Assembly (NCBI GenBank): GCA_021234155.1
Contig: JAJEKV010000100.1
Span: 660,116 to 724,115, forward strand
DNA length: 64,000 nt
Direction: 5' to 3'
Origin: Isoetes taiwanensis
Taxonomy: Eukaryota > Streptophyta > Lycopodiopsida > Isoetales > Isoetaceae
Within the stretch, counting starts at the first letter, position 1. Every line of letters starts with the position of its first letter. This document shows positions 9,951 through 63,628 of the stretch, piece by piece. Below the pieces are notes generated by a model. It was given only the letters and a program-made list of their open reading frames with translations. It ran no database searches and was not told the DNA's origin. Made by a program: the position numbers and the translations under genes.

Positions 9951-12344
<2,394 letters not shown>

Positions 12345-13412: not shown

Positions 13413-13440
13413 CTAGAAATGGTGCCCGGCGTTGCCGGGC
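13413..13440 (-). mobile_element. Candidate Helitron 3' terminus
   Basis: On the minus strand the sequence reads GCCCGGC-AAC-GCCGGGC (13440-13424), a perfect 7-bp stem with a 3-nt loop. It is followed after 7 nt by CTAG (13416-13413) and then T. A GC-rich hairpin a few bases before CTRR is the hallmark of a Helitron end. The element would extend to higher coordinates. I could not find its TC 5' end, and no Rep/helicase is present, so it would be non-autonomous. The hairpin is lost in the second duplicate (about 25,835). Confidence 0.4.
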
Positions 13441-13479
13441 CGGGAATGAAATTATAGGCATGCGTGTACATGAGCCTGC

Positions 13480-15560
13480 TAAAGTGCATAAGTGCAAAGT
13501 TTTTGAGGTTGCATGGAAGATGAATAGATGTTGCATTCAACAAAAGAGTGTTTAGTAGAAAGCAAGGAGTTCTTGCCCAATTTGTTGTACATGGGCTTGC
13601 TAACTTGCATAAGTGCTTCGATGTTGCAGGGAAGATGGGTGGTCCACGGCTAAGTTATCCATGGCTGGTCGTGTAACTGTGGCAAAGTCAGTTCTGAGTG
13701 GTACACATGTCTACATGGCATCCATATTGCTGGCACCGCAGTCAAAGATGCAGCTCATTGTTCGCACTGTCAGGAACTTCATCTAAGGTGGCACTGAAGA
13801 AGGAGCTGATGTTAAAGTTAGTTGGGCAAAGTGCATTATGCCTAAACTTTGTGGGGGGCTGGGGATGATTCACTTTTTCTCCAGAGCAAGGTGCTGATCT
13901 CTAAGTTCATGTGGCGGATTCTCAATAATGCTGATAATTCTCCAGGTCTGCGTCTCATTCACCAGTCTTTACAGAGGTGCATTTCCTTTGGCTCTCCATC
14001 CATTAAGCCTCTCCTCCCATGGGCATTATTCTATCCACTTTCTCCATATCCTAATGCATCTCCTTTCCTCAAGGGATTGCTAACCGCTTTGGAGATCAGG
14101 CTGCGACTTTGTTTCCATCCAATGGCCCACACACATCCTACAAACTAGTTGTTGGTGGATCCCTTTGGATGACGGTCATGCGGTTGTCCCCCGGTCTCTT
14201 CTCATCCATCCATTGACGAACGCGTCGGTGGGCGAGCAGCAGTGTGCTCCGCTGTGATTCTGCATGGTATAATGAGACAAGATTGTTGACGGGAATGAGT
14301 TCAAATTGAAGTTCCTTCTCCTTCAAGGGACCGAGCATTTGGGGAAAAGTAGCCGCTACACTTCCTCCACACCCACAAGACGTGGCTCTCCCCACTGGGT
14401 GGTTCATGGTAGTGTTAAGGAGGAGCACCCGTGCACTCGATGTATGTGGTCCCGCTTCATCCCGAGGTGTTGCCTCCATCGCCAAAGTAGCCTTTAGTTA
14501 TCCCCGAGCCTCATCGTAAAGCAAGCGATGCAGCGATGGGTATGGGATAAATTGCTTCATCCTAAGCTATCCATTTTATGGTGGCAGATCACTCATAGAT
14601 GCGCGCGGGTAAACACTCGTTGTTCATCGATTTCGTCCCACGCCTCGTGATCTGCCCTCTTTGCACGCTAGAGGGATGAGACAATTGAGCACCGCTTTTT
14701 CTTGTGTCACCATGTTCGACCTGCGGCGCTGGCTTCTCGAAGTCTTTTCCATTGTGACTTGAATAGTCGCTGTGTCCTTTTGTCGGTCTATCCTAGTTCT
14801 TGGGACAAGTTGGCAAAGAGGGCTTTCCACTTAGCATCCGCTTGGATCATCCGGGTCCATCCGAAGAGATCTAAATCTCCTCATCTTCAAGGGACAGCTC
14901 TTTTTCGATACGCAAGTGCTTAGGGATGCCCGTAATCGATTGTGAAGGCGCATAAATGTTCTTCCCTTGAAGGATGACATCAAAAGTGTCATTTGGGAAC
15001 AATATCTTCGATTCACACCTACCATAAGCAAACAGCAGTGCATGGGTGATCCTGATTCTCTCGCTTTCTATGTTATGTATGTGGTGGGTAGTGTTGCTCT
15101 AGTGGATATCTTCTCCACTGGGTTTTGAGTCCCCCATGTACTCTTTGTATTCTTTTGAGTAATAAAGGTCCACGTTCATCAAAAAAAAAAAAAGATGCTG
15201 CATTCAACAAAAAAGTATTTAGTAGAAAGCAAGAAGTTCTCATCCAAATGTTGCCAATGTGAACGCATAATATATGTTATTGCAATAAATACTTTGTGTT
15301 GTAACACCAACCTTATAGAGGCAAACTAAAACATACTTTGAAAATGCATGCGTTTATCTTTTTTTTGTAAATTAAATATGCTTACCAAAGACATTAAAAA
15401 AGGTAAAGATATCAATGTGTATGTGGGCTTGCTAAAGTGCATAAGTGCGAAGTTTTCGATGTTGCAGGGAAGATGGGTAGATGTTGCATTCAACAAAAAG
15501 AATGTTTAGTAGAAAGCAAGAAGTTCTCATCCACATGTGGCCAATGTGTACTTTGTGCTA
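13480..15560 (+). repeat. Local repeated sequence interrupted by a LINE
   Basis: A roughly 110-bp motif (words: cttgctaa.gtgcataagtgc, gatgttgcagggaagatg, gttgcattcaacaaaa, agtagaaagcaag) occurs at about 13480-13632, resumes in part at 15194-15260, and occurs again complete at 15424-15545. The L1-like LINE lies between the first and second. The arrangement says the LINE inserted into one member of a small dispersed or tandem family. Confidence 0.55.
13634..15193 (+). mobile_element. 5'-truncated L1-like LINE with poly(A) tail (left copy)
   Basis: Translation in several broken frames gives the C-terminal part of a plant L1 ORF2: the KLSMAGRVTVAKSVLSG-like segment, GGLGMIHFFSRAKVLISKFMW (frames shifted), then the zinc-binding zf-RVT region with DETIEHRFFLCHHV. 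AATAAA at 15161-15166 precedes 13 A residues at 15181-15193, so the true 3' end is preserved. The endonuclease and catalytic RT core are absent, as expected for 5' truncation during target-primed reverse transcription. It encodes nothing functional. Confidence 0.8.
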
Positions 15561-16190
15561 TAACACCAAAGACGTTCACAAAGATAGAGATAAAATAAGA
15601 AATAGGCACCCAAATTTTATTGAATGTCACTCGAATGGTAGAATGCTATAGGATCCCATACAATAGCCTAGTGTGGCCATGCCACGCTTTAGTAAACACT
15701 ACAATTTGCAGCATCACTATAAAGATTGTTTTACAATGTTGTATTGCAATGTGATGAGATGTTTACAACAACTTGAAACATATCACTACATAGGTTGTAG
15801 GCTTGGGAAGCCTATTTGAGGCATCATTCCAGTGTATCTCTGCTTGATTAGTAAAACCCACCCAGAAACAACATGATCGCACACCAAATTGTGCATGGTT
15901 GGTAATGTTCAGTATCAACAATAGCAATGTTGGATCTGAGTATTGCCACGAAGTTCAACCACAGCAGCATAACTATTTCTTTGCCACCAACAAAAACAGA
16001 GTATCTTAAATCCATGGTTTGATATCAAGTGTAAAAGTAACATTAAGAACTAAACATAAATAATAGTCATATTATGCAACATCCTAGCATAGTGTAAGTG
16101 CAATATCGTTATGGTCTACTTTTAGAATTGCATTGCTTGATATAGAGGTCATGTCCGCCCTCATTGTGAAGGCCCTGCAGTTTTAAGTAG
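15194..16190. other. Non-coding sequence between two LINE fragments
   Basis: No gene recognised. It includes two partial copies of the local repeat that flanks the L1-like LINE and AT-rich unique sequence. The same stretch recurs at 27541-28450 with few differences. Confidence 0.4.
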
Positions 16191-18060
16191 TTATGTAATG
16201 ATACAAACAGAAATATGGATAAATGTAGGCATTCCATTCATGGCATAAAACTGCATCATGTTGCCTGCAATGAAAGCCAAGTAGAACGATTGCCTCGGCC
16301 CTCTTGCTTTCTCAAATAGTGCCCTGAGTGTTAGAGCATGATCTAACGTGCTAATGTTGGCTTCTGAATCCTGCTTAGCATGGAGACCTCTTATTGTTCT
16401 TTTCAGCCCAATGACTAAGCTTCTATCCCAGCACTGTACCACTCAGTTTAGCAAAGATTGAACCAATCAATATGGTTCAATAGTTGCGTGCACCATCCTT
16501 AGCACCAATTTTATGAATGGGATGGACTCTGTTTTCTCTCCAAGATTTCTGCAGTCCTTCGCCTAAGGCCATGTTGAGCAGTCTGGTAAGTGTCTCCTGT
16601 ATTTTCTTTCCACTCCATTTCATCAATTCTACATGCAATCCCTATAGATCCGCTGCTTTGCCATACTTCATCCCATGCAATCCATTTGAAATGCCTTCCA
16701 TGGTGAGCATGTCCCCTAAGACTATTATCTGTGGCATCCCTTCTGCATTTTGCACGTCATATATTTTCTTCATAAATTCAAAAAGCTCATAAGCTTAAAA
16801 TAGGTGCATTGCCTTTTTTAGAACAACGTTACAAAACGTCTTTTGGGCTATTGCGCGATTTGGTGCACATTTTGGATTGCCTTTGCTTAATGTATTTCCT
16901 TTTTTCTTCGCTTTGGAGCTTTTTGTACCAGTGAGGTTTGGTAATACATGCTTTTGGAAGTAGCGCCCTTGCTGCAGAGCAATCTACATCCCACCATCTA
17001 TTTCTTGGTCGCCTATTATTTCTTGGCTTTGTGTGGCCGAAGATTTCTTCATTAACTTCTAGGAGGATCTGTGCAAATAAGGAAGCATCACTTTCTAGTT
17101 TCATAGACCAAATAGTGCATGCTCTTCTAGCTTCTAATGCTTTGCAATATTGCTCTTTTTTGTTGAAATCTAGTTTCAACTGTGGTTTAAAAACATTGGC
17201 ATTTTCTGATGATATGGATAAGCATCCCACGTTGAAGCGCAACTGTACATGATCTGACTCAGGGTTTTACTCAAGATCTGGAAAAAAATGTGATTACTGT
17301 TTTGTGCCAATACATAATCCACGACACTTGCTCCTAAATGTGTAATGCAGGTGTGTCCAGTCGACATTGGAAAATCCTTTGTGCCATTCAGAATTTTAAG
17401 ATCACAAATGGTGCAGAGCTCCAATAGTTTGTGATTCATTTCTTCATCAACAGATTTTCGAGAATAGATCTCTTCATGGATTTCATCCAGGAGCAAATCA
17501 TGCAGGTTTTCAAAAATAACAGCTTGCATATTGCTAGTACTGGCATTGAACTCCCCTGTGATAATGATTTCGCCATGATCTCTGATACCAATTATAACCG
17601 AGCATAAGCTGTGGAACGGATCATTATGATCTGTTCTAGCATCTTTATAAATCTTTGCATGGAGCGGTGCAAAATAGCAAAGTGCTATAAACAGAGGCTT
17701 GTCTCCATTTAATTTGAGCCCCATATATTGCTTTAGGTTATCCATTGTATGCACTGTAATCATTTTTGCCAAATCAATTTTTGCATATGTAGCAAGGCCG
17801 CCATGGCCTCTTCCAGCATCTTTGTTCTTGTGATTCCAGACATTACCAATCAATGTGAACCCGCATAAATCAGGAAGTGAATTATCTTGATGTTGCCATG
17901 TCTCCACAATCAATATTAAATCAACTGTTTTCCAAGTCTCAGTTGAAGCATCAAAGTGAGCTTGTCATGCGCCATGTACATTCCCGACTAGGATCTTCAA
18001 AGCCCCAATTTTCTATGCCTTTTTTCACTTTGTTTGCTTTGCCTCCCAGTCCAAATACGC
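16191..18060 (-). mobile_element. APE-type non-LTR retrotransposon, endonuclease to RT palm (left copy)
   Basis: Reading down the minus strand: an endonuclease-like start (LKILVGNVHGA near 18,030), then an open frame 17913-17176 with IVETWQHQD, GRGHGGLATYAK, IITGEFNAST (the GDFNA motif with D to E) and SVVDYVLA. A second frame, 17242-16829, holds the EN-RT linker with RNRWWDVDCSAAR. It is followed by RT motifs spread over broken frames: KAADLxGLHVELMKW, GLQKSWRENRVHPIHKIG, then STLDHALTLRALFEKA in 16442-16191. The catalytic YADD box is not reached, so the 3' part is missing. Stops and frameshifts make it inactive. A near-identical copy lies at 28.45-30.40 kb. Confidence 0.8.
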
Positions 18061-18881
18061 AATGAAACTGAGGTCTCTTGCCTCTTTAACTTTTGCCCAT
18101 TCTTTCTATCTTGCATCTAATTGAGCCGGAGTTAACGCGGGTTGCCATTTGGTGACCCCAATGGTGAACACAAGTGGACACTTGGCCCGATTGCTGTGGC
18201 ACCCTTTGTGTCCGCCATTAGCGCTTTGTCGGACACCGTCGCATGAATTTTCGGGTTGGAGGCATGGTGCCCTGTCTTACCCTAATGGTGAACCCGGGAG
18301 ATCGGAGATGGCGCGCCACGATCCGGCCGTTGGAGGAATCATTGTTGCAGATGGTGGGGGTACTATTTTTGGTGGCGAGGAGTTATCCCTGTATGGCGCA
18401 TGCATAACCATCAATGGTGAGCCAAGATTCTCGGCTAAAACAGGTGACATTCATGCTATTTCTGTATTGGTTTGAGATTTTTTTTGGTTTACTTTCATCT
18501 TTTGCATGTTTATTGCTCCAATGGTCCCGAGAGGTGAGGATGTGCTGCCATTCAACCAAAATTCCCTCCAATTTCCCCATCAGGGGCACTCGGATTGCTG
18601 ACATGTCTACATATCCAGCCCCTGATTTTGCTGCTACCAATTTGCCCCCTCTTGATGAGGGATTCTGTGCACATGATTGCCCAACTGGGGTGTGATTGCT
18701 TTTGGCTTGGATTGATGAGTTGTATGTGTTTGGTCCCATCCATTTCTTCCTCCTAACTGACGAAAGCTAGACCCTCCGCACCATCTCGAATTTTTTCTCT
18801 CTTGCAAAATACTCAAAAAATGGCCTTCCCCGAATAAAGACGCCTCCTAGATCTTTGGATCTGCAATTCTGCAAATCCAAC

Positions 18882-20252
18882 ATGAATCTGAGGAGCAAGA
18901 AGTGCATAGCCCCAAATCTGGCCACAGGTGCCGATCTGCCTCCACCCAATCCTGTCCCAATTCAGAAGGGAAGGAGAACACCCAAGCCTCTCATCTTGGA
19001 GCAGCAAATTTTGGAGGATCTGCCCAAGACTCCCAGGAATTATGCTAGAGGGGCTTGGACAATGAAGCAGATGGAGGATTGCATAGCTTCAATTGAAGAT
19101 GGTGTCTTCTCCATAAGAAAGGCTGCAATGCATTTTGGCATCCCTCAAACTACAATCAGGAACCATCTTGATGGGATCTCCACAAGCAAGTTTGGGAGTA
19201 CTCCCCGAGGTCTGACCCCAACTGAAGAAGCAGATCTGTTGGAATGGGCCTTCAAGTTGGGAGATGAAGGCAGGCCTATCACTTTGGAGGTCATGAGGCA
19301 GAAAGTAGCTGAGATGACAGCAAACATGCCAACAATTTTCAAGGGCGGGCTGCCAGGATCAAAGTGGTGGCATCTTTTCAAGAAGAGGCACCCTGAGGTC
19401 ACAATCAAGTCAGCTCAAGGCGTGGAGTTCAACAGGGTAAAAGCTATGACTTCCTTCAATTTGTCTAACTTCTATTCTACTCTAAAGAATTGCATAGATA
19501 CTCTAGGATTGGATGCATCTAGAGTTTGGAATGCAGATGAGACAGGTGTGCAAGCAGGGTTTAAGGGATCAATGCGTGTCATAGCAAGGAAGTCAGACAA
19601 GCATCCACACCAAAATGTTCCTACAAACAGGGAGTGGCTTTCTTTGTTAGTTTGTGTAAATGCTCAAGGTGTTGTTATGCCTGGATTGTATGTGTTCAAG
19701 GGGAAGAGGATGAGAGATGTAAATGTAATATCAGGTTGTGAGCCAGGGGCTGTCATGAGCTTCTAGAAGAGTGCTTGGATCACGGATGCACTCTTCCAAG
19801 CTTGGATTGACCAGTTTAGGAAGCATGTTCCAGGTGGAATTTCAATAGATAGGCCTCACTTACTCATTTGTGATGGTCATGGGAGTCATGTGACCTTGGA
19901 TACTGTCATGAAGGCAAAAGAGTTTGGTCTTCATATTCTGCAGCTTCCTCCATATACATCTCATAGGTTCGCGACCCACCGGATGTGGCGTAACGGCCCC
20001 TTCAAAGGCTACTTTAAGAAGAGTAGGGCTGACTTCATGAGCAAATCTGCGTGGGGAAGAACCAAGCAAGGAAGGAGCCACCCAATTGTATCAAAGTCAA
20101 TGAAGCATGCGTTGTCTCCAAATAATGTGAAGGCCGGTTTTGAAAAAACAGGTATTTGGCCATTTGATGATAAAGCAGTTTCTACTGACCCCAAGGCAGA
20201 TGAGATCCAGGCTGCAAGACAAAGAAAGTTGGAGGAGCTCAAAGCTGACTAA
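18882..20252 (+). pseudogene. Pogo-like DDE_1 transposase, left copy (broken)
   Basis: Start chosen at ATG 18882 (MNLRSKKCIAPN); the frame is already open a few codons upstream without an ATG. A Psq-type helix-turn-helix follows (WTMKQMEDCIASIEDG, SIRKAAMHFGIPQTTIRNHL), then a CENP-B/Tc5-like segment (LLEWAFKLGDEGRPIT), then the DDE_1 endonuclease fold: first Asp in VWNADETGVQ, second in HLLICDGHGSH. A TAG stop occurs at 19764-19766, codon 295, inside the catalytic domain, and the same stop is in the other copy. The third catalytic Asp (QPLDVACFGPFK in the right copy) is scrambled here. Such enzymes cut and paste elements at TA sites in the nucleus. No functional product is expected. Confidence 0.85.
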
Positions 20253-21610
20253 GGAGGTGAATACACTGGAACTTGATAATTCAAGGTAAGGGGCTTGAAG
20301 CATTGGCAGAGGCAGCCAGCAAAGAAGGACCAGGTAATTACACTTTGAACACAATCAATTGATTATTTTCATTGTGCTCAATTTCATTTCATTGTTTATT
20401 ATTACTTGGCGGACCGTGTGAGGATAGGGATCTTTGAGAGTTCACCAAGATGCAAAGGGGAGCACAATGTCCCACTTCGTACAAGAGGATGGGTTGAGGA
20501 AGTAGGGAATCTGATAATGAGGTGCCACAAATTTGTTTTAGTTACCATTTTGGTTGTTGTTTTCGCACCAATTACATTAGTTTAATACTTTGTCTATCTT
20601 AATGCTTTGCATTCATTCATAGGGTGCTGCCGGTGTATAAAAAAAAGAGGGCAAAGGTTTGGCTCCCGAGTCTCTTAAGAATAGAATTTTGGCAATGTGA
20701 GTCATGATGAGGTGATTTCAGCAAGGTTGGAGCACAAGAAGAAGAGTTTGGGAGAATTTGAGGCCCGACAGGAAGAAGCGGTACAGGGAAAGAAGCAAGG
20801 GGATGGACAAAGAGGAGAAGGGAAGAAGAGAATAAGAAACCGCGAGGAGGGAGAATAAACAAAGAGAGGTATGCTTGAGAGAAAAGGTCGAGGATGAAGC
20901 GGAGTAAATGATTCAAGTTGATAAATTGATGTTTTTATACTAACATCCGGTGTTTAATTTTATCTGGCCCGGCATGTGAGGGGTGTTAGACAAAGAAGGA
21001 TCGGGGAGAAAAGTCGAAATTACATAGAGTATGAAGGTTAAGTGATAAAGGGAGGTGAGGTTTGGATGTTCGCGGTCTGGTGAAATGTTGTTGGGAGACG
21101 GGGAAGACAAAGGGACCACCGAGGTTTCAGCTGGAAGTAAGGACATTGGAGTTGCACTACGGCCAGTATGCCAATGTAACCCGGTGACGAGGTTGATGCA
21201 ATTGAACCAGCTCAAGAGCCCCTTCAACTGCGGTCTCGATTCAATTTGCCTCACGAAGCAATGTTGCGGGATTCTCAAATTCCAGATTAGGATGAGACCA
21301 TGTTTGGGTGTAGCTTAGAAGAAACACATATTTGTTCATGGGATGAATTGATGAGGAAGAAGAAGGTGTACCCATATACTATCTGATTGGAGCCAATTGC
21401 AGATGGGGCAAGGGAATGGCCTTCACCAAATGAGATCTGGACAGACCCTGATGGTTATCATGGCGGCGGTGCAGTGAGAGCAAAGTGGAAGGAAATGAAG
21501 CTTGATGGCGACCAAAGAGTGATAGTGCTGAAATTTGTAGGAAGACAAAGAATTTGGATGAGCTATACGAGGCACAAGCTGTACACACCTCAGTTCGCAG
21601 GTTTGTGAGA
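20253..21610 (+). pseudogene. C-terminal exon remnants of the pogo-like gene, left copy
   Basis: These segments align with the right-hand copy at about 32,600-33,970: the acidic exon, the Lys/Glu-rich coiled-coil region and the CSLEETHICSWDELMRKKKVY segment. Splice sites are mostly destroyed; for example, the acceptor 'attgcagcag' of the right copy is 'attacttggcgg' here. No frame is usefully open except short pieces such as 21387-21608. Confidence 0.65.
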
Positions 21611-21779
21611 ATTTTTATATGCATGCACCTTTTATTATTTTTTTTGTTTAGAATTTCCTTACTCTAACATTCTCTTTGTTCAAAATTAGTTGAATGCATG
21701 CATCATTGATTTGCTTTAAAACTTGGCTTCTTGGTTTGAGCTTTCTAACTTTGTCTTAGGGTTTTGCTTGATCATGGTA

Positions 21780-22950
21780 GCTCTAAAAGGGCGTGAAGAA
21801 GGGAATCGACTCAAAGTTTCACATGACTATTAGCATGGGAGAGCTAAAGGTTTGAGAATCTAAGGATCAAGGTTTGTAATGAAGCTGAAGGATGCTGTGA
21901 GGAATAGCACTTAGGCTGATCTAGTTCATGTGCAACAAATATCAGCGTATTGCAAAGGGGAACATGACCTGGCGAAGGGTGTTTGTTGCTTCGTGAGGCT
22001 CATGCGGGGTTTTCGTGTGACCGGATCCTGTATGAGTGCTGGCGGCCGCGGGATGCTGGCGGCGTTGGTGGTTGGCCCAGGATTTTCCGTTTTATGTTGA
22101 TAATGTCGTTTGATAGTGTCGTTTGATTTGGCGCCAGATTGGACCTGGAATTTTGTGAAACTTGTTTCTGGGTTTGTGAAGGCTACCTCGCTTTGCTGTT
22201 TGCGGTAGCTGTGTTTGATCATGGACTGCCTGCCTGCCGCCTGCCGCCTGCCGCCGCCTGCCTGCCTGGCACTCGTTTGGTGCATGTGCCATTGCTTTTG
22301 TTTTGAGGGGTGTCCATTGGCGGTGTGAATGCACTGTTGGGTTTAGCGGATGCGCCATTGGAGTCGGCTGGCATTTTGTTTGAAGAAGTGATGGTGGTTT
22401 TAGAACTGTAGTTTCTGTACATATGCCACATATGTATCTTCAAAAAGAAATTGTAAGGTTGGCCAATATCCCTCTAGATGCCTGGAGTTGGTTGCATAAC
22501 ATCTTCCTTCAAGGTTAGAGATAAGTGCATCTAGAAGATGGTTGCATTGAATGTAGTCTTTGACTATGGATATTATAAGCTATGTTGTGAGAGCCACGAT
22601 TGATTTTTTTTAATATTATTGTAGATCGCTTCATTGTTGATTATTATTTTGAATTGTGAGGTACAATATATCTAAAGCTACAAAACTTATATTTTGCTTT
22701 TCTAGTTATAAAATAGCCAAGTGAAAGTTTGTAGCATAGCCAAATTCAAAAGTTACCATGAGATCCAAACACATATAAGCGTAATGATAATAATATCTTT
22801 AGCCAAATGTATATCATAAAATACTGTAAAATTGAAAAATATAGCCAAACCATTTTTATGGAAAAATATATAGTATGCTTAATTTTTTTCCACGATTGGT
22901 AATTGATGAGCTTTGAATGCTTTGACAATTTCATTGTTGGGCATCAAGAG
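21780..22950. other. Last pogo exon remnant and flank, left copy
   Basis: The sequence matches the right copy 34,140-35,230 but with many indels. The 3'-terminal exon is frame-broken. Beyond about 22,430 the flank is AT-rich and non-coding. Confidence 0.5.
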
Positions 22951-23779
22951 GTCGTGCATCTGAACAAGTAGACCTTTGAATATGAGAAGATTCCTTCTTT
23001 TCCAAATGGATCAAATTATCCATCGCGAAGCCAAATAGGCAGCCCTTTTGCCAAATTATCCTAACTACTTGGATAGTACGCTAATAGCTTATCTGGCTGG
23101 CTATTCAAATTGCAATGAAAAGGAGCCTTGAAGCCACAACCAACATGTCCTGACCCTGTCTACACATAGGAAGAAGCAATGCTCAATTGTTTTCGTCCCT
23201 ACATTGCACATAAGGGACAAAATGCCGGAGATAATGCGGGCGAAATTTGTGCACCGAATGCTTGAACAACGATGGTGACTGCCACCATAAAGCAGATACA
23301 TTGGGATGGAGTAGTTTATCCCATACCCATTCCATCTTGCTTTTACGCGATCCCTAGGAATGACCAAAGGCCACTTGGGCCGAAGGAGGCAACGTCGACA
23401 TCAAACAAGACCTTGTACATGGAATTCACCAACTTATACTGCTGACATGATCATGAACTACAGGCTAGGGGCCATCCACTTGTGCTGCGGAGGAAGAATT
23501 GAAGCGCATACGCCCAAATAGCTCGATCCACCTTAAAGGAGGAACTTAGCTCTAAACCCTCCCATGTCAGCCAAGCTGTCTTTGATTATTATTATACCAA
23601 TCAGAGATATCATATGCACACTGTGCTCTCCATCGGCGATGGGTCAATGGAGTGGACTAAAAGCTACCAAAAGAACCACCATCAATGGAATCCACCAACA
23701 ACTTGTAGTAGTGCTAGTATGTAAAGATGGTGAAAATGAAGCAGAGATTGTATGCGGTCTCCCATGCAACTAGCAATCC
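22950..23779 (-). mobile_element. L1-like LINE 3' end, truncated at the duplication junction
   Basis: The minus strand encodes pieces of the plant L1 zf-RVT tail (VIPRDRVKARWNGYG, a CNVGTKTIEHCFFLC-like zinc region) in 23367-23101. It matches the longer LINE at 35,230-37,020 but stops at 23,779, where sequence switches to CDC48. It is broken in frame by many indels. Plus-strand open frames here are shadows. Confidence 0.7.
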
Positions 23780-23789
23780 TCACAAGACA

Positions 23790-24830
23790 GTGTATTAGAA
23801 AAATGGATGTTATTGACCCTGAAAGGCAGGAGGCTGTCGTCCTGAAATTCTGAATTCTTGGCAGTGGCGCAATATTGTTTTCAAGCCCGCTTTGTGGCTA
23901 CAACCAAATCCTTCTGCATAGGTAGTATTTTGGGGAATTGTGCCGTGTCCGTGGGAGATGTTGGTGGTGTCGGTGTAGAAGAAACTGCAAAGAGACTGTG
24001 GCTATCCTGTTGACATCACGAAAGTTTTGGAATGGCTGCATCAAAAGGTGTTGCTCATTATGGCCCCAGGTTGTGACGGGAACTCTCTGGCGAAACGATT
24101 ACTAATGAATGCCAAGCCAATTTTACAAAAGTAAAGGGGCCCCAGAGTTGCTTACAATGTGCAGTTTGGCGGCCGGTAAGAATGTTAGAGATGTCTTTGA
24201 CAGGCAGCAGCGTAATCCACCCGTATTGTTTTTGATGAGTTGATTTCCGCACAGCGCTACTCGGCAGAGAAACGCCGTTGGTGAGGGAATGCTGAAGGAG
24301 CTGATGAGTTCTTGTCAATACTGAAATGGATGGCATGGGCTGCCAGGCTAACATCATTGAAGAGCTGAAACTCGGGCTGATATCATTGGTGTCGCCGTCT
24401 AGTGGCTAAGATCAGCTTATCACCCTCCACTAGATGAAAGCCGCGTGCAGAATATTTCCCCAGCTGCTCTTGGAAGTCTTCGCGCTGGGACGCGTGATCT
24501 GGGATGCAAAATGTACTCTGGCTTCAGTGGTGCTGATATTACAGAAATTTATGGCGATGCTTGTAGGTATCTTTCTTCTGAAAAATCAACCAGGACTTGG
24601 AGATGGAGAAGAAAGGCTGAAATCCAGATGCCATGGATGAAAGAGGGTAAAGAAGTGCTGACTTAGCTATGCACGAGGAGGGCGTAAGTGAAGCTCGTCG
24701 TGACATTGAAGTGATGTACTAAAATTAGGAAATTATCGAAGCATTTGCTGAACATTCATAATCAGTTTGGATCTTCATTTTAGCTTTCCTGACCAACAGC
24801 CTTGCATAAACACTAATGGAAGATGACTTA
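23790..24830 (+). pseudogene. Broken 3' fragment of CDC48 (duplicate)
   Basis: This aligns with CDC48 codons about 419-788 and its stop region (compare 'gaccaacagccttgcataaacac' with 12,291 onward). Indels occur every 10-20 bp, so no D2 Walker motif is translatable in one frame. The 5' end of the gene is absent because the duplication starts inside the ORF. The decay pattern does not respect codons, and the nearby non-coding flank is equally noisy. Confidence 0.9.
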
Positions 24831-24839
24831 TGGCTGAAT

Positions 24840-26035
24840 ATATGGTGTATATATTATTTTGAATTGATATTCGTTACTTTTAATTGAATATTTTCTCCTC
24901 TACTATTAAAATCTGGTTTTGCTTCTTTTTATCCTTTGCATGGTAATTTTCTTGAGTGGGCAATCACTAGGTGAGTAATCTTTCCCAGCTTTGCTTGCAC
25001 TAACATAGGGAGAGAAAAGAAACGTGGAGAGATTAGCTCTCATGCGGGTTCTGAAACTTTAATACATGTCAATGGGACCTGAAACCTTTTAAGCTATGTC
25101 AATATGGAGTTCTGCTTACCTTCTTCTCCAGAATGCTCCTTTATAGTCTTTCGAATTTAAACAATGCATAAAGTGAAGACAAAGCTAAATCACTGAAGAA
25201 GGATTAACTTTTGGTATGTGATCATATTTGTGAAAAGTTGGAGGAATCGCTCGGAGAATGGAGTGTTAACATTACCTCAAATGCAACCAATCCCCGGAGT
25301 TTGGCAGGAGCCAAAAGCATACATTTCTTGCTTAAAACCGTATGAAATTTTGCTTTGCGTCAAAAGTGGGACTTGGCGCTTCGGCTGATTACGAGATATA
25401 GTCAGTGACGAGATGTCCAAAGCTATAAAGGTCCGATGAACTAATTTATGGCATGAATGAAAAGCCAGCAGGGCCAATAGCCATCTTTGAGTTCTGAAGC
25501 CAATGGCGCATTAACTTCGCAGCTACACGGTGAGTTGAGTGAAAAGCGAGATCATCCCTATTATCTTGGGCAATCTTGCTCCTTAGTCACCAGCATCCTT
25601 CCAGATCCCAACCACGATGTTGCACAGGAAACAACCATTCTGTCCCTGCAAATATGATAGCTAGCATAAATCTGGCTTTCACATAAAAAACTTATCTCTT
25701 ACCTAGAAGGTGCATTTTTATTTTAGTATTAACAACGGCTTTGATGCTTACAGCTTTCAATAATAAATAGCAGATCTAACTTCACTAGTACCTTCAAATA
25801 GATGCCTGTCTTGGATCATCCAAGTCTTACTAAAATATGTTGGATTTAGCATCAAGAAATATAATCATGCCATGAACTTATAAAGTGCATAAGTGCAAAG
25901 TTTTTAGAAGTTACTGGAAGATGAATAGATGTTGCGATAATATAAAGAGTGTTTAGTAGAAAGCAAGGAGTTCTTGCCCAATTTGTTGTACATGGGCTTG
26001 CTAACTTGCATAAAGTGCTTCGATGTTAGGGAAGA
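24840..26035. other. Duplicate of the CDC48 3' flank
   Basis: This is the counterpart of 12,345-13,633 with frequent indels. The 32-bp-spaced repeat and the Helitron-like hairpin of the left copy are not preserved. No gene recognised. Confidence 0.5.
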
Positions 26036-27540
26036 TGGAGCCGTCCGACACAAGTTATCCATGGTATTAGTGTAGCACATGTAAGAAATCCAGGTTACAG
26101 TGGTACATGTCTACATGTATATCCTATTATATGGCTTTGTGATCAAGATCTTGACTGAACTGTATAGCTTGTCGAGAACTTCATCTAAGGTGGCAGAAGA
26201 AGGAGGCGTGTTAAGACCAGTGTAGAAAATTATGCCCTAAACTTTGTGGAAATTTGGGGATTGGTCACTTTTTCTCGAGCAAGGTCTTTGATCTCTAAGT
26301 TCATGTGGATTCTCAATAATCTTGATAATTCTCCAGTGCGTCTCATTCACCGGTCTTCTGAGAGGTGCATTTCCTTTGGCTCTCCATCCATTAAGCCCTC
26401 TCCTCCCATGGGCATTATTCTATCCACTTTCTCCATATCCTCATCTCCTTTCCTCAAGGATTGCTTCGGGAGGCTGTCGCACTTTGTTTGATTCCATCAA
26501 TGGCCCACAGTCCCTCTGACTTGTTGGTGGATCCCTTTGGATGGCGGTCATGCGGTGTCTTGTCCATCCATTGGCCTTAGCGTCATTGGCGGCGGCGGAG
26601 TGTGCTCACGGTATACGCATGGTATAATGAGACAAGATTGTTGGCGTGGAATGAGTTCCAAATTGAAGTTCCTTCTCCGCCGTTGGGACGGGCATTTGGG
26701 AAAAAGTATTGCTACACTTCCTCCACACCCACAGGCGTGGCTCCCCGGCTCACAGGTGGTTCATGGTAGTGTTAAGGAGGGCACGGTGCACTTCGATGTA
26801 TGTGGTCTGCTTCATCAATGCGGTGTTGCCTCCATCGCCAAAAGTAGCCTTTAGTTATCCCAGAGCCTCATCGTAAAAGCGATGCAGCGGATGGGTATGG
26901 GATAATTGCTTCATCTAAGCTATCCATTTTTATGGTGGCGAGATCACTCATAGATGCGTCTTGGGTAAACGCGTTGTATTCATCGATTTATCACGCGTCG
27001 TGATCGCCCTCTTTGCACCTTGAGAGGGATGAGACAATTGAGCAGCACTTTTCTTGTGTCACCATGTTGGAATTTTGCTTGGCATTGGCAAAGTTTTTCC
27101 ATTGTGACTTGAATAGTCGGCCGGAGGTCCTTTTTTGTCGATCTATCCTAGTTCTTGGGACAAGTTGGCAAAAGGGCTTTCCATAACATCACCTTGGATC
27201 ATCTGGTCCCATCGGAAAGAGCGAAATCTCCTCATCTTCAAGGGGGCGACTCTTCCGGATACAGGAGTGCTTAGGGATGCCGTAGTCGCATTGTGAAGGC
27301 GTACAAATGTTCTTCCTTGAAGGATGACATCAAAAAGTGTCATTTGGGAACAATATCTTGATTCACACCTACTCGTAACAACGGTTGTGCTCATGGTGAT
27401 CGTATTCTCGCTTTTCTATGTTATGTATGTGGTGGGTGGTGTTGCTCTAGTGGATATCTTCTCCCTTTGGGTTTTAGTCCCCATGTACTCTTTGTATTCT
27501 TTTGAGTAATAAAGGTCCACGTTCATCAAAAAAAAAAAAA
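26036..27540 (+). mobile_element. 5'-truncated L1-like LINE with poly(A) tail (right copy)
   Basis: This is the duplicate of the LINE at 13,634-15,193, ending in the same AATAAA and a 13-A tail (27528-27540). The body has many small indels relative to the left copy, while sequence after the tail is clean. RT thumb and zf-RVT traces remain (ISKFMWILNNLDNSP). Confidence 0.8.
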
Positions 27541-28450
27541 GATCGCATTCAACAAAAAGTATTTAGTAGAAAGCAAGAAGTTCTCATCAAATGTTGCCAA
27601 TGTGAACGCATAATATATGTTATTGCAATAAATACTTTGTGTTGTAACACCAACCTTATAGAGCAAAACTAAAACATACTTTGAAAATGCATGCGTTTAT
27701 CTTTTTTTTTGTAAATTAAATATGCTTACCAAAGACATTAAAAAGGTAAAGATATCAATGTGTATGTGGGCTTGCTAAAAAAGTGCATAAGTGCGAAGTT
27801 TTCGATGTTGCAGGGAAGATGGGTAGATGTTGCATTCAACAAAAAGAATGTTTAGTAGAAAGCAAGAAGTTCTCATCCACATGTGGCCAATGTGTACTTT
27901 GTGCTATAACACCAAAGACGTTCACAAAGATAGAGATAAAATAAGAAATAGGCACCCAAATTTTTATTGAATGTCACTCGAATGGTAGAATGCTATAGGA
28001 TCCCATACAATAGCCTAGTGTGGCCATGCCACGCTTTTAAACACTACAATTTGCAGCATCACTATAAAAGATTGTTTTACAATGTTGTATTGCAATGTGA
28101 TGAGATGTTTACAACAACTTGAAACATATCACTACATAGGTTGTAGGCTTGGGAAGCCTATTTGAGGCATCATTCGGTGTATCTCTGCTTGATTAGTAAA
28201 ACCACCCGAAACAACATGATGATCGCACCAAATTGTGCATGGTTGGTAATGTTGAATTATCAACAATAGCAATGTTGGATGCGAGTATTACCCGCAGTTC
28301 AACCACAGCGGCATAACTATTTCTTTGCCACCAACAAAAAGCAGTATCTTAAATCCATGGTTTGATATCAAGTGTAAAAGTAACATTAAGAACTAAACAT
28401 AAATAATAGTCATATTATGCAACATCCTAGCATAGTGTAAGTGCAATATC
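27541..28450. other. Non-coding sequence between LINE fragments, right copy
   Basis: This is nearly identical to 15,194-16,190. Differences cluster at CTG/CAG sites, for example 'gatgctgcattc' (left) versus 'gatcgcattc' (right). No gene recognised. Confidence 0.5.
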
Positions 28451-28451
28451 G

Positions 28452-30400
28452 TTATGGTCTACTTTTAGAATTGCATTGCTTGATATAGAGGTCATGTCCG
28501 CCCTCATTGTGAAGGCCCTGCAGTTTTAAGTAGTTATGTAATGATACAAGCGAAATATGGATAAATGTAGGCATTCCATTCATGGCATAAAAGCGCATCA
28601 TGTTGCTGCAATGAAAGCCAAGTAGAGCGATTGCCACCGGCCCTCTTGCTTTCTCAAATAGTGCCACAGGTGTTAGAGCATGATCTAGCGTGCTAATGTT
28701 GGCTACGAATCCTGCTTAGCATGGAGACCTCTTATTGTTCTTTTCAGCCCAATGACTAAGCTTCTATCCCAGCACTGTACCACTCAGTTTAGCAAAGATT
28801 GAACCAATCAATATGGTTCAATAGTTGCGTGCACCATCCTTAGCACCAATTTTATGAATGGGATGGACTCTGTTTTCTCTCCAAGATTTCTGCAGTCCTT
28901 CGCCTAAGGCCATGTTGAGCAGTCTGGTAAGTGTCTCCTGTATTTTCTTTCCACTCCATTTCATCAATTCTACATGCAATCCCTATAGATCCGCTGCTTT
29001 GCCATACTTCATCCCATGCAATCCATTTGAAATGCCTTCCATGGTGAGCATGTCCCCTAAGACTATTATCTGTGGCATCCCTTCTGCATTTTGCACGTCA
29101 TATATTTTCTTCATAAATTCAAAAAGCTCATAAGCTTAAAATAGGTGCATTGCCTTTTTTTAGAACAACGTTACAAAACGTCTTTTGGGCTATTGCGCGA
29201 TTTGGTGCACATTTTGGATTGCCTTTGCTTAATGTATTTCCTTTTCTTCTGTCTTTGGAGCTTTTTGTACCAGTGAGGTTTGGTAATACATGCTTTTGGA
29301 AGTAGCGCCCTTGCTGCAGAGCAATCTACATCCCACCATCTATTTCTTGGTCGCCTATTATTTCTTGGCTTTGTGTGGCCGAAGATTTCTTCATTAACTT
29401 CTAGGAGGATCTGTGCAAATAAGGAAGCATCACTTTCTAGTTTCATAGACCAAATAGTGCATGCTCTTCTAGCTTCTAATGCTTTGCAATATTGCTCTTT
29501 TTTGTTGAAATCTAGTTTCAACTGTGGTTTAAAAACATTGGCATTTTCTGATGATATGGATAAGCATCCCACGTTGAAGCGCAACTGTACATGATCTGAC
29601 TCAGGGTTTTACTCAAGATCTGGAAAAAAATGTGATTACTGTTTTGTGCCAATACATAATCCACGACACTTGCTCCTAAATGTGTAATGCAGGTGTGTCC
29701 AGTCGACATTGGAAAATCCTTTGTGCCATTAATTTTAAGATCACAAATGGTGCAGAGCTCCAATAGTTTGTGATTCATTTCTTCATCAACAGATTTTCGA
29801 GAATAGATCTCTTCATGGATTTCATCCAGGAGCAAATCATGCAGGTTTTCAAAAATAACAGCTTGCATATTGCTAATGCGGCATTGAACTCCCCAATGAT
29901 AATGATTTTAGCCATGATCTCGATACCAATTATAGCAGGGCATAAGGCGTGGGCGGATCATTATGATCTGTTCTAGCATCTTTATAAATCTTTGCATGGA
30001 GCGGTGCAAAATAGCAAAGTGCTATAAACAGAGGCTTGTCTCCATTTAATTTGAGCCCCATATATTGCTTTAGGTTATCCATTGTATGCACTGTAATCAT
30101 TTTTGCCAAATCAATTTTTGCATATGTAGCAAGGCCGCCATGGCCTCTTCCAGCATCTTTGTTCTTGTGATTCCAGACATTACCAATCAATGTGAACCCG
30201 CATAAATCAGGAAGTGAATTATCTTGATGTTGCCATGTCTCCACAATCAATATTAAATCAACTGTTTTCCAAGTCTCAGTTGAAGCATCAAAGTGAGCTT
30301 GTCATGCGCCATGTACATTCCCGACTAGGATCTTCAAAGCCCCAATTTTCTATGCCTTTTTTCACTTTGTTTGCTTTGCCTCCCAGTCCAAATACGCAAT
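28452..30400 (-). mobile_element. APE-type non-LTR retrotransposon (right copy)
   Basis: This is the duplicate of 16,191-18,060. Endonuclease pieces are in 30250-29930 and 29868-29518, and the linker frame is 29584-29171. The endonuclease frame that is open in the left copy is split here by indels at about 29,728 and at 29,870-29,950, where CTG in the left copy reads as CG or is altered. The RT fragment shows the same stops as the left copy, so the element was already dead before the duplication. Confidence 0.8.
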
Positions 30401-31218
30401 GAAACTGAGGTCTCTTGCCTCTTTAACTTTTGCCCATTCTTTCTATCTTGCATCTAATTGAGCTGGAGTTAACGTGGGGTTGCCATCTTTGGTGACCCCC
30501 AATGGTGAACACAAGTGGACACTTGGCCCGACAAGGTGGCACCCTTTGTGTCCGCCGTGGCGCTTTGTCGGACACGCGTGGCGAATTTCGGTTGGAGGCA
30601 TGGTGCCCTGTCTTACCCTAATGGTGAACCCGGGAGATCGGAGATGGCGCGCCACGATCCGGCCATTGGATGAATCATTGTTGCAGATGGTGGGGGTACT
30701 ATTTTCGGTGGTGAGGAGTTATCCTTGTATGGCGCATGCATAACCATCAATGGTGAGCCAAGATTCTCGGCTAAAACAGGTGACATTCATGCTATTTCTG
30801 TATTGGTTTGAGATTTTTTTTAGTTTACTTTCATCTTTTGCATGTTTATTGCTCCAATGGTCCCGAGGGATGAGGATGTGCTGCCATTCAGCCAAAATTC
30901 CCTCCAATTTCCCATCAGGGGCACTCGGATTGCTGACATGTCTGCATATCCAACCCCTGATTTTGCTGCTACCAATTTGCCCCCTCTTGATGAGGGATTC
31001 TGTGCACATGATTGCCCAATCTGGGGTGTAGATTGCTTCTTGCCTCGGATTGATGAGTTGTATGTGTTTGGTCCCATCCATTTCTTCCCTAACTGATCGA
31101 GCTAGACCCTCCAGACCATTCGAATTTTTCCCTCTCTTGCAAAATACCCAAAAAAAATGGCCCTCCTGACAGCAGCACGCTCCTAGATCTGTTGGATCTG
31201 CAATTCTGCAAATCCAAC

Positions 31219-32673
31219 ATGAATCTGAGGAGCAAGAAGTGCATAGCTCCAAATCTGGCCATAGGTGCCGATCTGCCTCCACCCAATCCTGTCCCAATTC
31301 AGAAGGGAAGGAGAACACCCAAGCCTCTCATCTTGGAGCAGCAAATTTTGGAGGATCTGCCCAAGACTCCCAGGAATTATGCTAGAGGGGCTTGGACAAT
31401 GAAGCAGATGGAGGATTGCATAGCTTCAATTGAAGATGGTGTCTTCTCCATAAGAAAGGCTGCAATGCATTTTGGCATCCCTCAAACTACAATCAGGAAC
31501 CATCTTGATGGGATCTCCACAAGCAAGTTTGGGAGTACTCCCCGAGGTCTGACCCCAACTGAAGAAGCAGATCTGTTGGAATGGGCCTTCAAGTTGGGAG
31601 ATGAAGGCAGGCCTATCACTTTGGAGGTCATGAGAGGCAGAAAGTAGCTGAGATGACAGCAAACATGCCAACAATTTTCAAGGGCGGGCTGCCAGGATCA
31701 AAGTGGTGGCATCTTTTCAAGAAGAGGCACCCTGAGGTCACAATCAAGTCAGCTCAAGGCGTGGAGTTCAACAGGGTAAAAGCTATGACTTCCTTCAATT
31801 TGTCTAACTTCTATTCTACTCTAAAGAATTGCATAGATACTCTAGGATTGGATGCATCTAGAGTTTGGAATGCAGATGAGACAGGTGTGCAAGCAGGGTT
31901 TAAGGGATCAATGCGTGTCATAGCAAGGAAGTCAGACAAGCATCCACACCAAAATGTTCCTACAAACAGGGAGTGGCTTTCTTTGTTAGTTTGTGTAAAT
32001 GCTCAAGGTGTTGTTATGCCTGGATTGTATGTGTTCAAGGGGAAGAGGATGAGAGATGTAAATGTAATATCAGGTTGTGAGCCAGGGGCTGTCATGAGCT
32101 TCTAGAAGAGTGCTTGGATCACGGATGCACTCTTCCAAGCTTGGATTGACCAGTTTAGGAAGCATGTTCCAGGTGGAATTTCAATAGATAGGCCTCACTT
32201 ACTCATTTGTGATGGTCATGGGAGTCATGTGACCTTGGATACTGTCATGAAGGCAAAAGAGTTTGGTCTTCATATTCTGCAGCTTCCTCCATATACATCT
32301 CATAGGTTGCAGCCACTGGATGTGGCATGCTTTGGCCCCTTCAAAGGCTACTTTAAGAAGAGTAGGGCTGACTTCATGAGCAAATCTGCAGGGAAGGAGC
32401 CAAGCAAGGAAGATCTGGCCACAATTGTATCAAAGTCAATGAAGCAAGCGTTGTCTCCAAATAATGTGAAGGCCGGTTTTGAAAAAACAGGTATTTGGCC
32501 ATTTGATGATAAAGCAGTTTCTGCTGACCCCAAGGCAGATGAGATCCAGGCTGCAAGACAAAGAAAGTTGGAGGAGCTCAAGGCAGCTAAGGAGGTGGAC
32601 ATACCTGCAGACTTGATAATTCAAGGTAAGGGGCTTGAAGCATTGGCAGAGGCAGCCAGCAAAGAAGGACCAG
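31219..32673 (+). pseudogene. Pogo-like DDE_1 transposase, right copy (two lesions)
   Basis: Same gene as the left copy. ATG at 31219. A 2-bp AG insertion at about 31,633 shifts the frame after LEVMR, and the TAG at 32103-32105 is shared with the left copy. The remainder is open and shows what the left copy lost: second Asp in LLICDGHGSH, third Asp in HRLQPLDVACFGPFKGYF, and the KTGIWPFDD motif usual after the DDE_1 domain. The first exon ends at a GTAATT donor (exon end 32673). The matching acceptor at 32745-32747 restores the frame in phase 1 (G/CA giving Ala). Nuclear cut-and-paste transposase; inactive as it stands. Confidence 0.88.
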
Positions 32674-32747
32674 GTAATTACACTTTGAACACAATCAATT
32701 GATTATTTTCATTGTGCTCAATTTCATTTCATTGTTTATTATTGCAG

Positions 32748-32870
32748 CAGACCCGTGTGAGGATAGGGATGCTGAAGCTGAGGTTCACCAAGATGCAAGG
32801 GAGCACAATGTCCCCACTTCAATGCAAGAGGATGGAGTTGAGGAAGTAGGGAATCACCAGCCAATAACAG
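32748..32870 (+). pseudogene. Second exon of the pogo-like gene
   Basis: The exon lies between 'ttattattgcag' (acceptor) and 'ataacag/gtgcca' (donor). It encodes an acidic stretch beginning ADPCEDRDAEAEVHQD. Frame and phase agree with the upstream transposase exon. No domain is known to me. Confidence 0.6.
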
Positions 32871-32973
32871 GTGCCATTTTGTTTGGTGTTACCATTTAGT
32901 TTGTTGTTTCACTTTCCAATTACATTAGTTTAATACTTTGTCTATCTTAATACTTTGCATTCATTCTGCATAG

Positions 32974-33900
32974 GAACAACAACAGTGTATAAAAAAGAGG
33001 GCAAAGGGTTTGAGGCTCCCAGAGTCTCTTAAGAATAGGCTGTATGTGAGTCATGATGAGGTGCTTTCAGCAAGGTTGGAGCACAAGAAGAAGTTTGAGG
33101 AGGCTGAGGCAGCAAGGAAGAGAAGAAAAAACAGCAGGCTGCAAGGAAAGAAGCAAGGGAGATGGACAAAAGGAGAAGGGAAGAGAATAAGAAGGCACGA
33201 GAGGAGAAAAAAAGACAAGCAAGAGAGAGGGCTGTAGCAGAGAGAGAAGAAGAGGTCGGGGATGAAGCAGGTAAATGATTCAAGTTATTCAAATTGATGT
33301 GTTTTTTATACCTAGCTTGTCAATTGTTTAATTTTACTCTTTATGCAGCAGCATGTGAGGGTGTTAGACCAAAGAGGATCGGGAAGAAGTCTAGAAGGTA
33401 CATAGAGTATGAAGAGTTAAGTGATGAGGAGAGTGAGGTTTAGATGTTCAAGCAGTCTGGTGAGAATGTTGTTGGAGATTCAAACAAACAGGAAGACAAG
33501 GGACCTCAGGTTTCAGCTCATAGTGACAGGACATGTCATTTGGAAGTTGCACTCGACAGTATGCCAATGGCAACCAGTGACCAGGTTGATGCAATTGAGC
33601 CAGCTCAAGAGCCCCTTCAACCTGCAGTGCTTGATTCCCAGCTGCCTCCTGAAGCAATGTTGCAGGATTCTCAAATTCCAGATTCGGATGAGACCATGTT
33701 TGGGTGTAGCTTAGAAGAAACACATATTTGTTCATGGGATGAATTGATGAGGAAGAAGAAGGTGTACCCATATACTAATACAGTGGAGCCAATTGCAGAT
33801 GGGGCAAGGGATTGGCCTTCACCAAATGAGATTTGGACAGACCCTGATGGTTATCATGGCAGGGGCAGTGTAAGTGAGAGCCAAAGTGGAAGGAAATGAA
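32974..33900 (+). pseudogene. Coiled-coil and acidic exons of the pogo-like gene
   Basis: The frame 33010-33237 encodes LPESLKNRLYVSHDEVLSAR followed by a Lys/Glu/Arg-rich helix with coiled-coil character. A GTAAAT donor at about 33,270 and a TATGCAG acceptor at about 33,348 are apparent. A second long frame, 33444-33899, contains CSLEETHICSWDELMRKKKV and WPSPNEIWTDPDGYHG. The exact joins are uncertain because phases between exons 2 and 3 do not match simply. These belong to the transposase gene's C-terminal region or to a second element-encoded protein. Confidence 0.5.
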
Positions 33901-34123
33901 ACAGTGACAGCCAAAGTGATAGTGCTGAAATTTGTAGGAAGACAAGGAATTTGGATGAGCTATACAGGGCACAAGCTAATGCACACCTCGGATTCCTTGG
34001 GTAGAATTTCCTTCCACTCTAACATTCTGCTGTTCAAAATTAGTTGAATGCATGCATCGTGATTGCAATATCCCTTTAAAACTTGGCTTCTTGGTTTGAG
34101 CTTTCTAACTTTGTCTTCTGCAG

Positions 34124-34443
34124 GTTTTTGCTTGATCATGGCGCGCTCTAAAAGGACTGTGAAGAAGGGAATCGACTCCAAGTTTCACATGACTATTAGC
34201 ATGGGAGAGCTTCAAAGGTTTGAGAGTCTAGGGATCAAGGTTTGTAATGAACTGAAGGATGCTGCTGAGGGAATGGCACCGGCTGATCTGATTCATGTGC
34301 AAGCAAATATCACTGTGTACAAGGGGAACATGACCCTGCTGAAGGGTGTTTGTTGCCCCTGTGAAGGCTCCTGCCCTGAGGGCTGTGTAACCCGATCCTA
34401 TGATACTAGCAGCACAGATACTAGCAGCAGTGATGGTGCTTAG
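34124..34443 (+). CDS. Terminal exon with a Cys cluster, pogo-like element
   Basis: The exon follows a clean polypyrimidine/TCTGCAG acceptor and ends in TAG at 34441-34443. It contains ATG 34138 (MARSKRTVKKGID) and could be a last exon or a separate small protein of about 101 residues. It encodes basic residues, an amphipathic segment (MGELQRFESLGIKVCNEL) and a cysteine cluster, CCPCEGSCPEGC, possibly metal-binding, then a Ser/Thr/Asp tail. Its homologue in the left copy (21,790-22,060) is broken. Function unknown. Confidence 0.45.
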
Positions 34444-34485
34444 AATTTCCATTTTATGTTAATGTAATCGGCTGGTAATGTGTCA

Positions 34486-34505
34486 TTTGGTGTTTTAACA
34501 CCAAA
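34486..34505 (+). terminator. Palindrome in the 3' flank of the pogo-like gene
   Basis: TTTGGTGT-TTTA-ACACCAAA is a perfect 8-bp stem with a 4-nt loop, 43 bp after the stop codon. It may be a 3'-end or subterminal element signal; the role is not established. Confidence 0.3.
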
Positions 34506-34509
34506 TTGA

Positions 34510-35229
34510 ACACAAATTTTGTAAAAACTTATTTCTAAGTTTAATGAAAACTACCTCCTTTTGCTGTGCTTTATGTTGTCCAGCATGGTTTTTCACTGCA
34601 CTATTTGTTGAATTGCATGTGCCATTGCTGTTTTGAGGGTGTCCATTGCAGGGTATGAATGCACTATTGGGTTGCGGATCTGCACCATTGGGGGGGTCGA
34701 CTGCGCTGTTTGAAGAAAGTGATAGTAGTTTTTCGAACTATGAATTTCTATTACATATACCACATATGTATCTTCAAAAAGAAATTGTAAGAGTTGGCCA
34801 ATATCCCTCTAGATGCCTGAGTTGGTTGCATAACATCTTCCTTCAAGGGTTAGAGATAAGTGCATCTAGAAGGTGTCGTTGCATTGAATGTAGTCTTGAC
34901 TATGGATATTATAAGCTATGTTGTGAGCTTCTGTTAATTTTTTTTTTAATATTATTGTATCGTCCTTCATTGTTGATTATTATTTGTAATTGTAGTACAA
35001 TATATCTAAAGCTACAAAACTTATATTTTTTGCTTTTTCTAGTTATAAAAAATAGCCAAGTGAAAGTTTGTAGCACTTAATTCAAAAGTTCGCCAAGTCC
35101 AAACACATATAAACGTAATGATAATAATATCTTTAGCCAAATGTATATCATAAAATACTGTAAAATTCTGAAAAATAGCCAAACCATTTTTTATGGAAAA
35201 ATATATAGTATGCTTAATTTTTTCCCTGT
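34510..35229. other. AT-rich flank between pogo element and LINE
   Basis: No gene recognised. The open frame at 34646-35080 has no recognisable domain and is not preserved in the left duplicate. The LINE 3' end lies at about 35,220, next to a short T run on the plus strand. Confidence 0.4.
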
Positions 35230-43547: not shown

Positions 43548-43970
43548 GAAGTGGAGGCCAAATCCCAACGACAGACATCGTTACCAGCATCTCAAAACCA
43601 TAGACTATGGTTGGTCCATCAACAACAAGCCACAGATGGTTGTGATATTTGCAATTGTAGCGGCTCAGTTACAGGAATTACTGGCCAAAGAGGCCACATG
43701 AGGATGGAGAAAAATTTTAAATCTTCAAGGTACATTAAAGTAGTTGCTATTCATTATGCATTGCATTTTTTAAATTAATACAAGAGCTCTTACACATTAC
43801 CATATCTTATATGCCAGAATATCACTATATTGTATATTGCTAAATAGGTGCTGGATACACCTAAAGCACACAATAATCACATCAGTCACTCATCATGACC
43901 ACGCAAGGTCAACGAGTTAATCTCATAGGTATAGCGCTCTGAAAGCCATACGAGATGGATAACAACATAG
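43548..43970. other. 3' flank of DUF7869-like copy A
   Basis: The stretch is still homologous to copy B's flank (the words 'agactatggttgg', 'agctcagttacaggaatta' and 'caagagctcttacac' have counterparts near 48,480, 48,420 and 48,250 in inverse orientation). The repeated element therefore extends past the stop codon by at least 250 bp. No gene seen. Confidence 0.5.
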
Positions 43971-61744: not shown

Positions 61745-61789
61745 TGCAAACAAGATTGACAGAAATGAGACGGTGATCTTTGTGCTTAC

Positions 61790-63417: not shown

Positions 63418-63628
63418 GTATTAATAAGTCAGATAGAGTTTAGATGCCATCTCATCTGGAGACAACAATGTGTCTTTTATTAGATTGAGAGAGAGATTGA
63501 TATGCCTTATCTGGAGGTAAAGGACCTTTAGGAGCCTTTCCATATAAAGGCATGCCTATAAATAAAGGCATTGGCTAACAAGTATTCATGGTTCTGAACT
63601 TTGAACTTATCCAAATATTTCAAACGTT

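Follow-up and report, generated by a model that had tools for sequence, protein, structure and literature searches.

CAG and CTG triplets facing CG words in two head-to-tail units of an Isoetes taiwanensis contig: probable base-calling errors at CHG-methylated cytosines

A stretch of 64,000 nucleotides from the lycophyte Isoetes taiwanensis (contig C909, positions 660116-724115, in a 1.66-Gb assembly of 1110 contigs; hereafter, the window) contains two head-to-tail units, A and B (Table 1), in which CAG or CTG of one unit repeatedly faces a CG word in the other. The question raised by this locus is whether such differences reflect evolution or error, and why they should fall on these triplets. 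We consider the CG forms, with a probability of about 0.85, to be nanopore base-calling errors at 5-methylcytosine (5mC) in CHG sites (CAG, CTG, CCG), which would have survived where polishing failed. The original prediction quoted six pairs of duplicate words; all of them are present, some about 10 bases away from the coordinates given (agtactggc/aatgcggc is located at 17537/29876 and ccactgg/ccaccgg at 32317/19980).

Trimer context of the errors

The differences between A and B are rich in insertions and deletions (indels) and strongly uneven along the units. The final A/B alignment was anchored; a MAFFT alignment with gap opening 1.0 was dropped, as mismatches were forced where gaps belong (1691 mismatches). 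Up to 19960, unit A is the cleaner copy, apart from corrupt patches within it at about 14070-15070, and it is noisy from 19970; unit B is noisy at 23788-27540 and lightly noisy to about 30650, and beyond about 32300 it is the one taken as cleaner. Base error, scored against the cleaner copy per region in unit-A coordinates, was 28.8% in 11229-12380 (part of an open reading frame (ORF) for a CDC48-type ATPase), 25.3% in 12381-15190, 3.4% in 15191-18320, and 3.2% in 18321-19960; in 19961-23700, with unit A as the noisy side, it was 18.0%. The noisy regions have more gapped than mismatched columns. The CG forms fall on the noisy side, as implied by the range of 19967-30700 proposed earlier; the scars of copy A itself at about 14070-15070 had been missed.

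Controls for CAG/CTG (CWG) were the mirror trimers of the same composition, GAC/GTC (GWC), and those for CCG/CGG were GCC/GGC. Counting of CWG changes across the A/B alignment, proposed earlier as a check, revealed an excess in three regions: CAG/CTG were broken in 63/70 cases versus 31/60 for GAC/GTC in 12345-15190 of A (p 1e-6), 17/67 versus 2/39 in 15191-18320 (p 0.007), and 92/130 versus 26/69 in 19961-23700 (p 6e-6). None of the 2824, 3108, and 3717 circular shifts of the error map in the respective regions reached the observed counts. A new CG arose at 21/70, 11/67, and 39/130 CWG trimers, and at 98/2482, 30/2849, and 187/3466 of all other trimers (1-5%). The signature was stable under three alignment scorings, and in 12345-14069 only, before A's own patches, CWG was broken at 46-47/52 and GWC at 16/31 under the three scorings. 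CCG/CGG were broken too (31/35, 6/21, and 8/14 versus 28/56, 4/72, and 23/80 for GCC/GGC in the three affected regions); therefore, the context is CHG and not CWG alone. In 15191-18320, base error was highest in and beside CHG, dropping off within about 3 bases. No CWG excess was found in the CDC48 coding sequence, 11229-12344 (15/40 versus 10/20), or in 18321-19960 (3/54 versus 2/31).

The ORF part 11229-12344 recurs garbled in unit B from 23788, and CHG trimers are not error-prone there. In bins of 330 bases, CHG was broken at 2/11, 9/13, and 4/13 in three coding bins, at 5/9 across the gene end, and then at 10/10, 11/15, 12/13, and 15/15, the non-CHG trimers of the same bins being broken at 0.42-0.57 throughout. 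This step at the 3' end of CDC48 is the pattern that a methylation edge at the gene end would give. The CDC48 part, being a conserved gene, would be expected to lack CHG methylation. Another source of the excess could be raw long-read noise, with a base-caller weak at CAG and CTG regardless of methylation; the stretch is noisy throughout, and the middle coding bin also has much of its CHG broken. Such an origin is unlikely, however, as CAG/CTG were broken at 15/40 versus 532/1072 for other trimers in the coding part of CDC48, where the noise is just as strong, the excess begins at the 3' end of the gene, and CCG/CGG are affected likewise.

Third copies and dispersed repeats

Which unit is wrong was assessed with third copies from elsewhere in the genome. 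At 13638-15190, the 3' part of a long interspersed nuclear element (LINE), five LINE copies resemble A at 91-92% and B at about 82%; at 22896-23563, a second repeat, the figures for five copies are 96-97% with B and about 85% with A. When single columns were compared, third copies in 13638-15190 agreed with A 300 times and with B 84 times, 31 columns being split or matching neither, and the 84 columns favouring B include A's corrupt patches at about 14070-15070. The respective counts (with A, with B, split or neither) were 34, 1, and 10 in 15565-16269, and 30, 10, and 5 in 16270-18134; in 22896-23563, 127 columns went with B, two with A, and three with neither or split. In the CDC48 part, the single paralogue agreed with A in 387 columns, with B in eight, and with neither in 24. 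In unit B, third copies cover 35229-35900; for 12381-13637 and 18329-19960 of unit A, none was used. The possibility that unit B alone is wrong was ruled out, as 19970-23787 and the patches at about 14070-15070 are wrong in A. CHG trimers common to most other copies were broken at 32/36 (13638-15190) and 4/7 (15565-16269) in B, and at 17/21 in A (22896-23563), the mirror trimers of the same sets being broken at 29/63, 1/17, and 12/31. In CDC48, the shared trimers were broken at 17/38 for CHG versus 28/43 for the mirror words.

These comparisons make it very improbable that the pair is a true tandem duplicate with real divergence, produced by transposon decay or by an unknown CWG-to-CG mutation process. 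Some clean A/B transitions at 18329-18925 do resemble ordinary substitutions; however, gap columns exceed mismatches, the wrong side switches from B to A inside the pair, decay of methylated cytosines would yield TTG or CAA, and the scars of other copies occur at differing sites. Within CDC48, the mismatches between A and B are flat across codon positions 1/2/3 (25/19/20, with 258 gap columns), and those between A and its paralogue L022 (95%) over the whole ORF are 27/11/64. Real divergence is rejected because of the flat codon-position differences and the polarity of the third copies; the A/B differences in the noisy stretches are, on the comparison of copies, error and not evolution.

The LINE was followed across the assembly with 12400-15190 as a query, the best 40 of 2542 candidates being scored. 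The sample comprises 34 listed copies besides window copy A, shorter ones being omitted. Five of the 34 (L031, L038, L044, L049, and L056) are scarred; of 58 conserved CWG sites, 11-16 have become CG in these copies, which also show 10-46 indel events. As the scarred copy of unit B falls outside the listing, this share is probably a lower bound. The five were chosen by a leave-one-out comparison with all copies, and the later reference excluded them. The window copies have CG at 19/58 (A) and 22/58 (B) of the conserved sites, and the other 29 at 0-6 of 58-60 sites (L012 and L055 at six), with 0-15 indel events. At one CTG site of the LINE, the first 100 listed of 333 matches, counted by hand, have 81 CTG, 10 CCG (one of them window copy A), one CG, one CCGG, four CTA, two CTT, and one TTG. 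A GAC control site, counted likewise in the first 100 listed of 254 matches, has 95 GAC, two GAT, two GGC, and one AAC, its length being constant. Thus, among the matches listed, CCG, CG, or CCGG occurred in 12/100 at the CTG site versus 2/100 with the middle base changed at the control (p 0.01). In the second repeat, 22896-23563, a new CG was found at 10/22 CWG sites in A and at none in B. A LINE subfamily or gene conversion as the source of the CG forms in LINE copies is the least probable of the explanations, for although CTG-to-CCG recurs at one site (the 10 cases in the first 100 listed), neither the changed sites nor the resulting words are the same among the scarred copies across the 58 conserved CWG sites, and these copies carry 10-46 indel events against 0-15 in the other 29.

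Proposed mechanism and points that weigh against it

Errors at the CHG motif are concentrated as described and spare the CDC48 coding part, both of which are expected of methylation-induced error. The original prediction, unpolished base-calling errors at CHG-methylated cytosines of silenced transposons, is supported in that the effect is CHG-wide, absent in the coding part, and recurs in LINE copies, the platform and the methylation being presumed. Under this explanation, native plant DNA would carry 5mC at the CHG sites of silenced transposons, and a base-caller trained on 5mC mainly within CG would write methylated CAG or CTG as a CG word (CG, CCG, CGG, GCG, or ACG). Short-read polishing would erase such errors where reads map uniquely, and would fail near the unit junction and in young multi-copy LINEs. 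The nanopore platform, the actual presence of 5mC, the habit of the base-caller, and polishing failure as the cause of survival are the inferred elements of this explanation.

A footprint of methylation was sought in the 29 cleaner LINE copies. Changes of C to T (or G to A) were found at 107/2072 CG (5.2%), 153/4061 CHG (3.8%), and 264/15156 CHH (1.7%) positions, and A/T transitions at 181/23350 (0.8%). The surplus of C-to-T changes at CG and CHG fits the trace that methylation in these two contexts would leave, part of it perhaps being leftover error. Transitions between A and L022 in CDC48 (CG 9/80, CHG 9/170, CHH 22/759, A/T 46/1394) are too few for a judgement on gene methylation.

Several observations weigh against the proposed explanation. 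First, most broken trimers in the heavy stretch are not CHG; hence, methylation accounts for the signature, and not for all errors. The CDC48 part has the highest base error of all, for which CHG methylation gives no explanation, and its middle bin blurs an otherwise clean step. Second, CG was created at merely 21 of the 70 CWG trimers in 12345-15190, and the total CG count in 12381-15190 is barely up, from 75 to 76 (in 19961-23700, it rises from 36 to 93). Third, in 16270-18134 shared CHG trimers were broken in B at 2/25, neither into CG, and mirror trimers at 1/28; the CWG evidence is at its weakest in the light stretch, and this set lends it no support. Fourth, none of the 25 top-ranked copies of the second repeat family, out of 39 other matches listed, is scarred (CG at 0-1 of 22 sites). 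Fifth, transversions in the cleaner LINE copies are raised at CHG too (56/4061 versus 90/15156 at CHH), and therefore some of the CHG excess may be leftover error and not decay. Finally, the error types are not uniform. Homopolymer shortening is a habit of nanopore reads, and the ratio of shortening to lengthening is mixed (7:0, 11:5, 3:4, 1:1, and 12:2 in five regions); the coding part and 12345-15190 have more deletions than insertions, which is not so in 19961-23700 (275 versus 276).

Layout of the window, precedents and meaning

Table 1. Features of the window discussed in the text
Feature	Position	Strand	Basis or remark
Unit A	11229..23787	+	Self-BLAST and alignment; first of the head-to-tail pair
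Unit B	23788..36118	+	Self-BLAST and alignment; end at about 36118
Heavy noise stretch	19970..27540		Roughly centred on junction 23787/23788; base error 18-29% in three region sets
Light noise stretch	27541..30650		Base error 13% in CHG trimers, 1-3% at >=3 bases away
CDC48-type AAA ATPase ORF, single-exon, 788 aa	9978..12344	+	Pfam CDC48_N and AAA
LINE 3' part (zf-RVT, A-rich end), high genomic copy number	13638..15190	+	Scars CTG to CCG or CG at about 14070-15070
Unit-B copy of this LINE piece, with heavy scars	26040..27536	+	Third-copy comparison
Endonuclease-like ORF (Exo_endo_phos, under curated cut-off)	17176..17913	-	Pfam
Transposase-like ORF with HTH_psq (HTH_Tnp_Tc5 under cut-off)	18855..19766	+	Pfam
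Unclassified repeat	22896..23563	+	Noisy in A; second family compared

Unit A starts within the CDC48-type ORF, of which unit B has only a garbled last part. At the junction, the unit end (tagcaatcct) is followed by a few unmatched bases and then by the middle of the ORF. The heavy noise reaches about 3.8 kb on both sides of the junction, and the light noise is found on the B side only. The duplication is suspect because the heavy noise straddles the junction; it may be a false product of assembly, with the junction presumably backed by few or chimeric reads. Long homology is absent at the unit junction (23781-23800 and 36100-36130), which lies inside the heavy noise. The single-exon ORF is possibly a conserved retrocopy; a full-length relative (95%) is located at C1045:24939898-24942300, 64 of the 102 coding differences falling on third positions.

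The LINE assignment relies on zf-RVT in copy L010 (E 4.7e-8, 34.0 bits, cut-off 27.5), the element being a 3' piece without a visible reverse transcriptase domain; the endonuclease-like ORF is perhaps a piece of another LINE. At 18329-18925 / 30665-31262, clean transitions are clustered in copies that are otherwise near-identical, which is unlike the noise, and these are perhaps haplotype differences. In a search covering 18329-18925, all 39 other matches listed start no earlier than query base 842 (window 19041). In unit B, the transposase-like ORF has its frame shifted, relative to unit A, by a GA insertion at 31632. Elsewhere in the window, 42627-43618 and 48472-49462 form an inverted pair, about 80% alike, and 42495-43547 codes for a DUF7869 protein; direct repeats, 91-94% alike, occupy 57496-64000, a stretch with ORFs for a protein kinase (59495-59947) and a polyprenyl synthetase (61205-61744).

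Nanopore error induced by methylation is known from bacterial Dcm. In Klebsiella, about 70% of the errors in the consensus fell on Dcm sites under the then-current default models, and in the Enterobacteriaceae errors at Dcm sites (CCWGG) likewise involve 5mC at a C-W-G core, an untrained model, and errors that persist in the consensus (PMC6591954, in the passages available). Unlike those, the errors described here sit at CHG in a plant, with no flanking CC..GG frame; the coding region is spared, and the CG word is a frequent outcome, which those passages do not describe. For native plant DNA, reduced nanopore accuracy and species-specific base-callers are on record, and both sources point to plant DNA modification absent from the training data (PMC9749173, PMC7501810); in the text available, neither gives CHG-resolved errors or a CWG-to-CG signature, "CHG" occurring 0 times and once, respectively. 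In a polished nanopore assembly of maize A188, about 96.4% of potential errors were in transposons and other repeats (PMC8188678); the concentration in repeats is similar, and the available part makes no tie to CHG sites. The plant CHG form with a CG outcome was thus not met, or named, in the portion of the open-licence literature searched, other parts of which may still describe it.

These results indicate that the assembled sequence is partly wrong in a patterned way, which affects 5/34 sampled LINE copies elsewhere in the assembly. Methylation context calls, ages of transposable elements, and gene models would be distorted by spurious CGs and indels in young copies of transposons. A comparison of CWG-to-CG changes with those at GWC controls offers a simple way to screen for this damage, and could give an indirect readout of CHG methylation. 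As a tentative extension, plant assemblies from native nanopore reads might preserve CHG methylation in readable form, CWG-to-CG scars marking methylated sites where polishing failed and their density stepping up at a gene's edge, as would be expected of CHG methylation itself. If this were true, CG content, repeat dating, and gene calls in transposable elements would be biased, and silenced regions would be readable from the assembled sequence alone.

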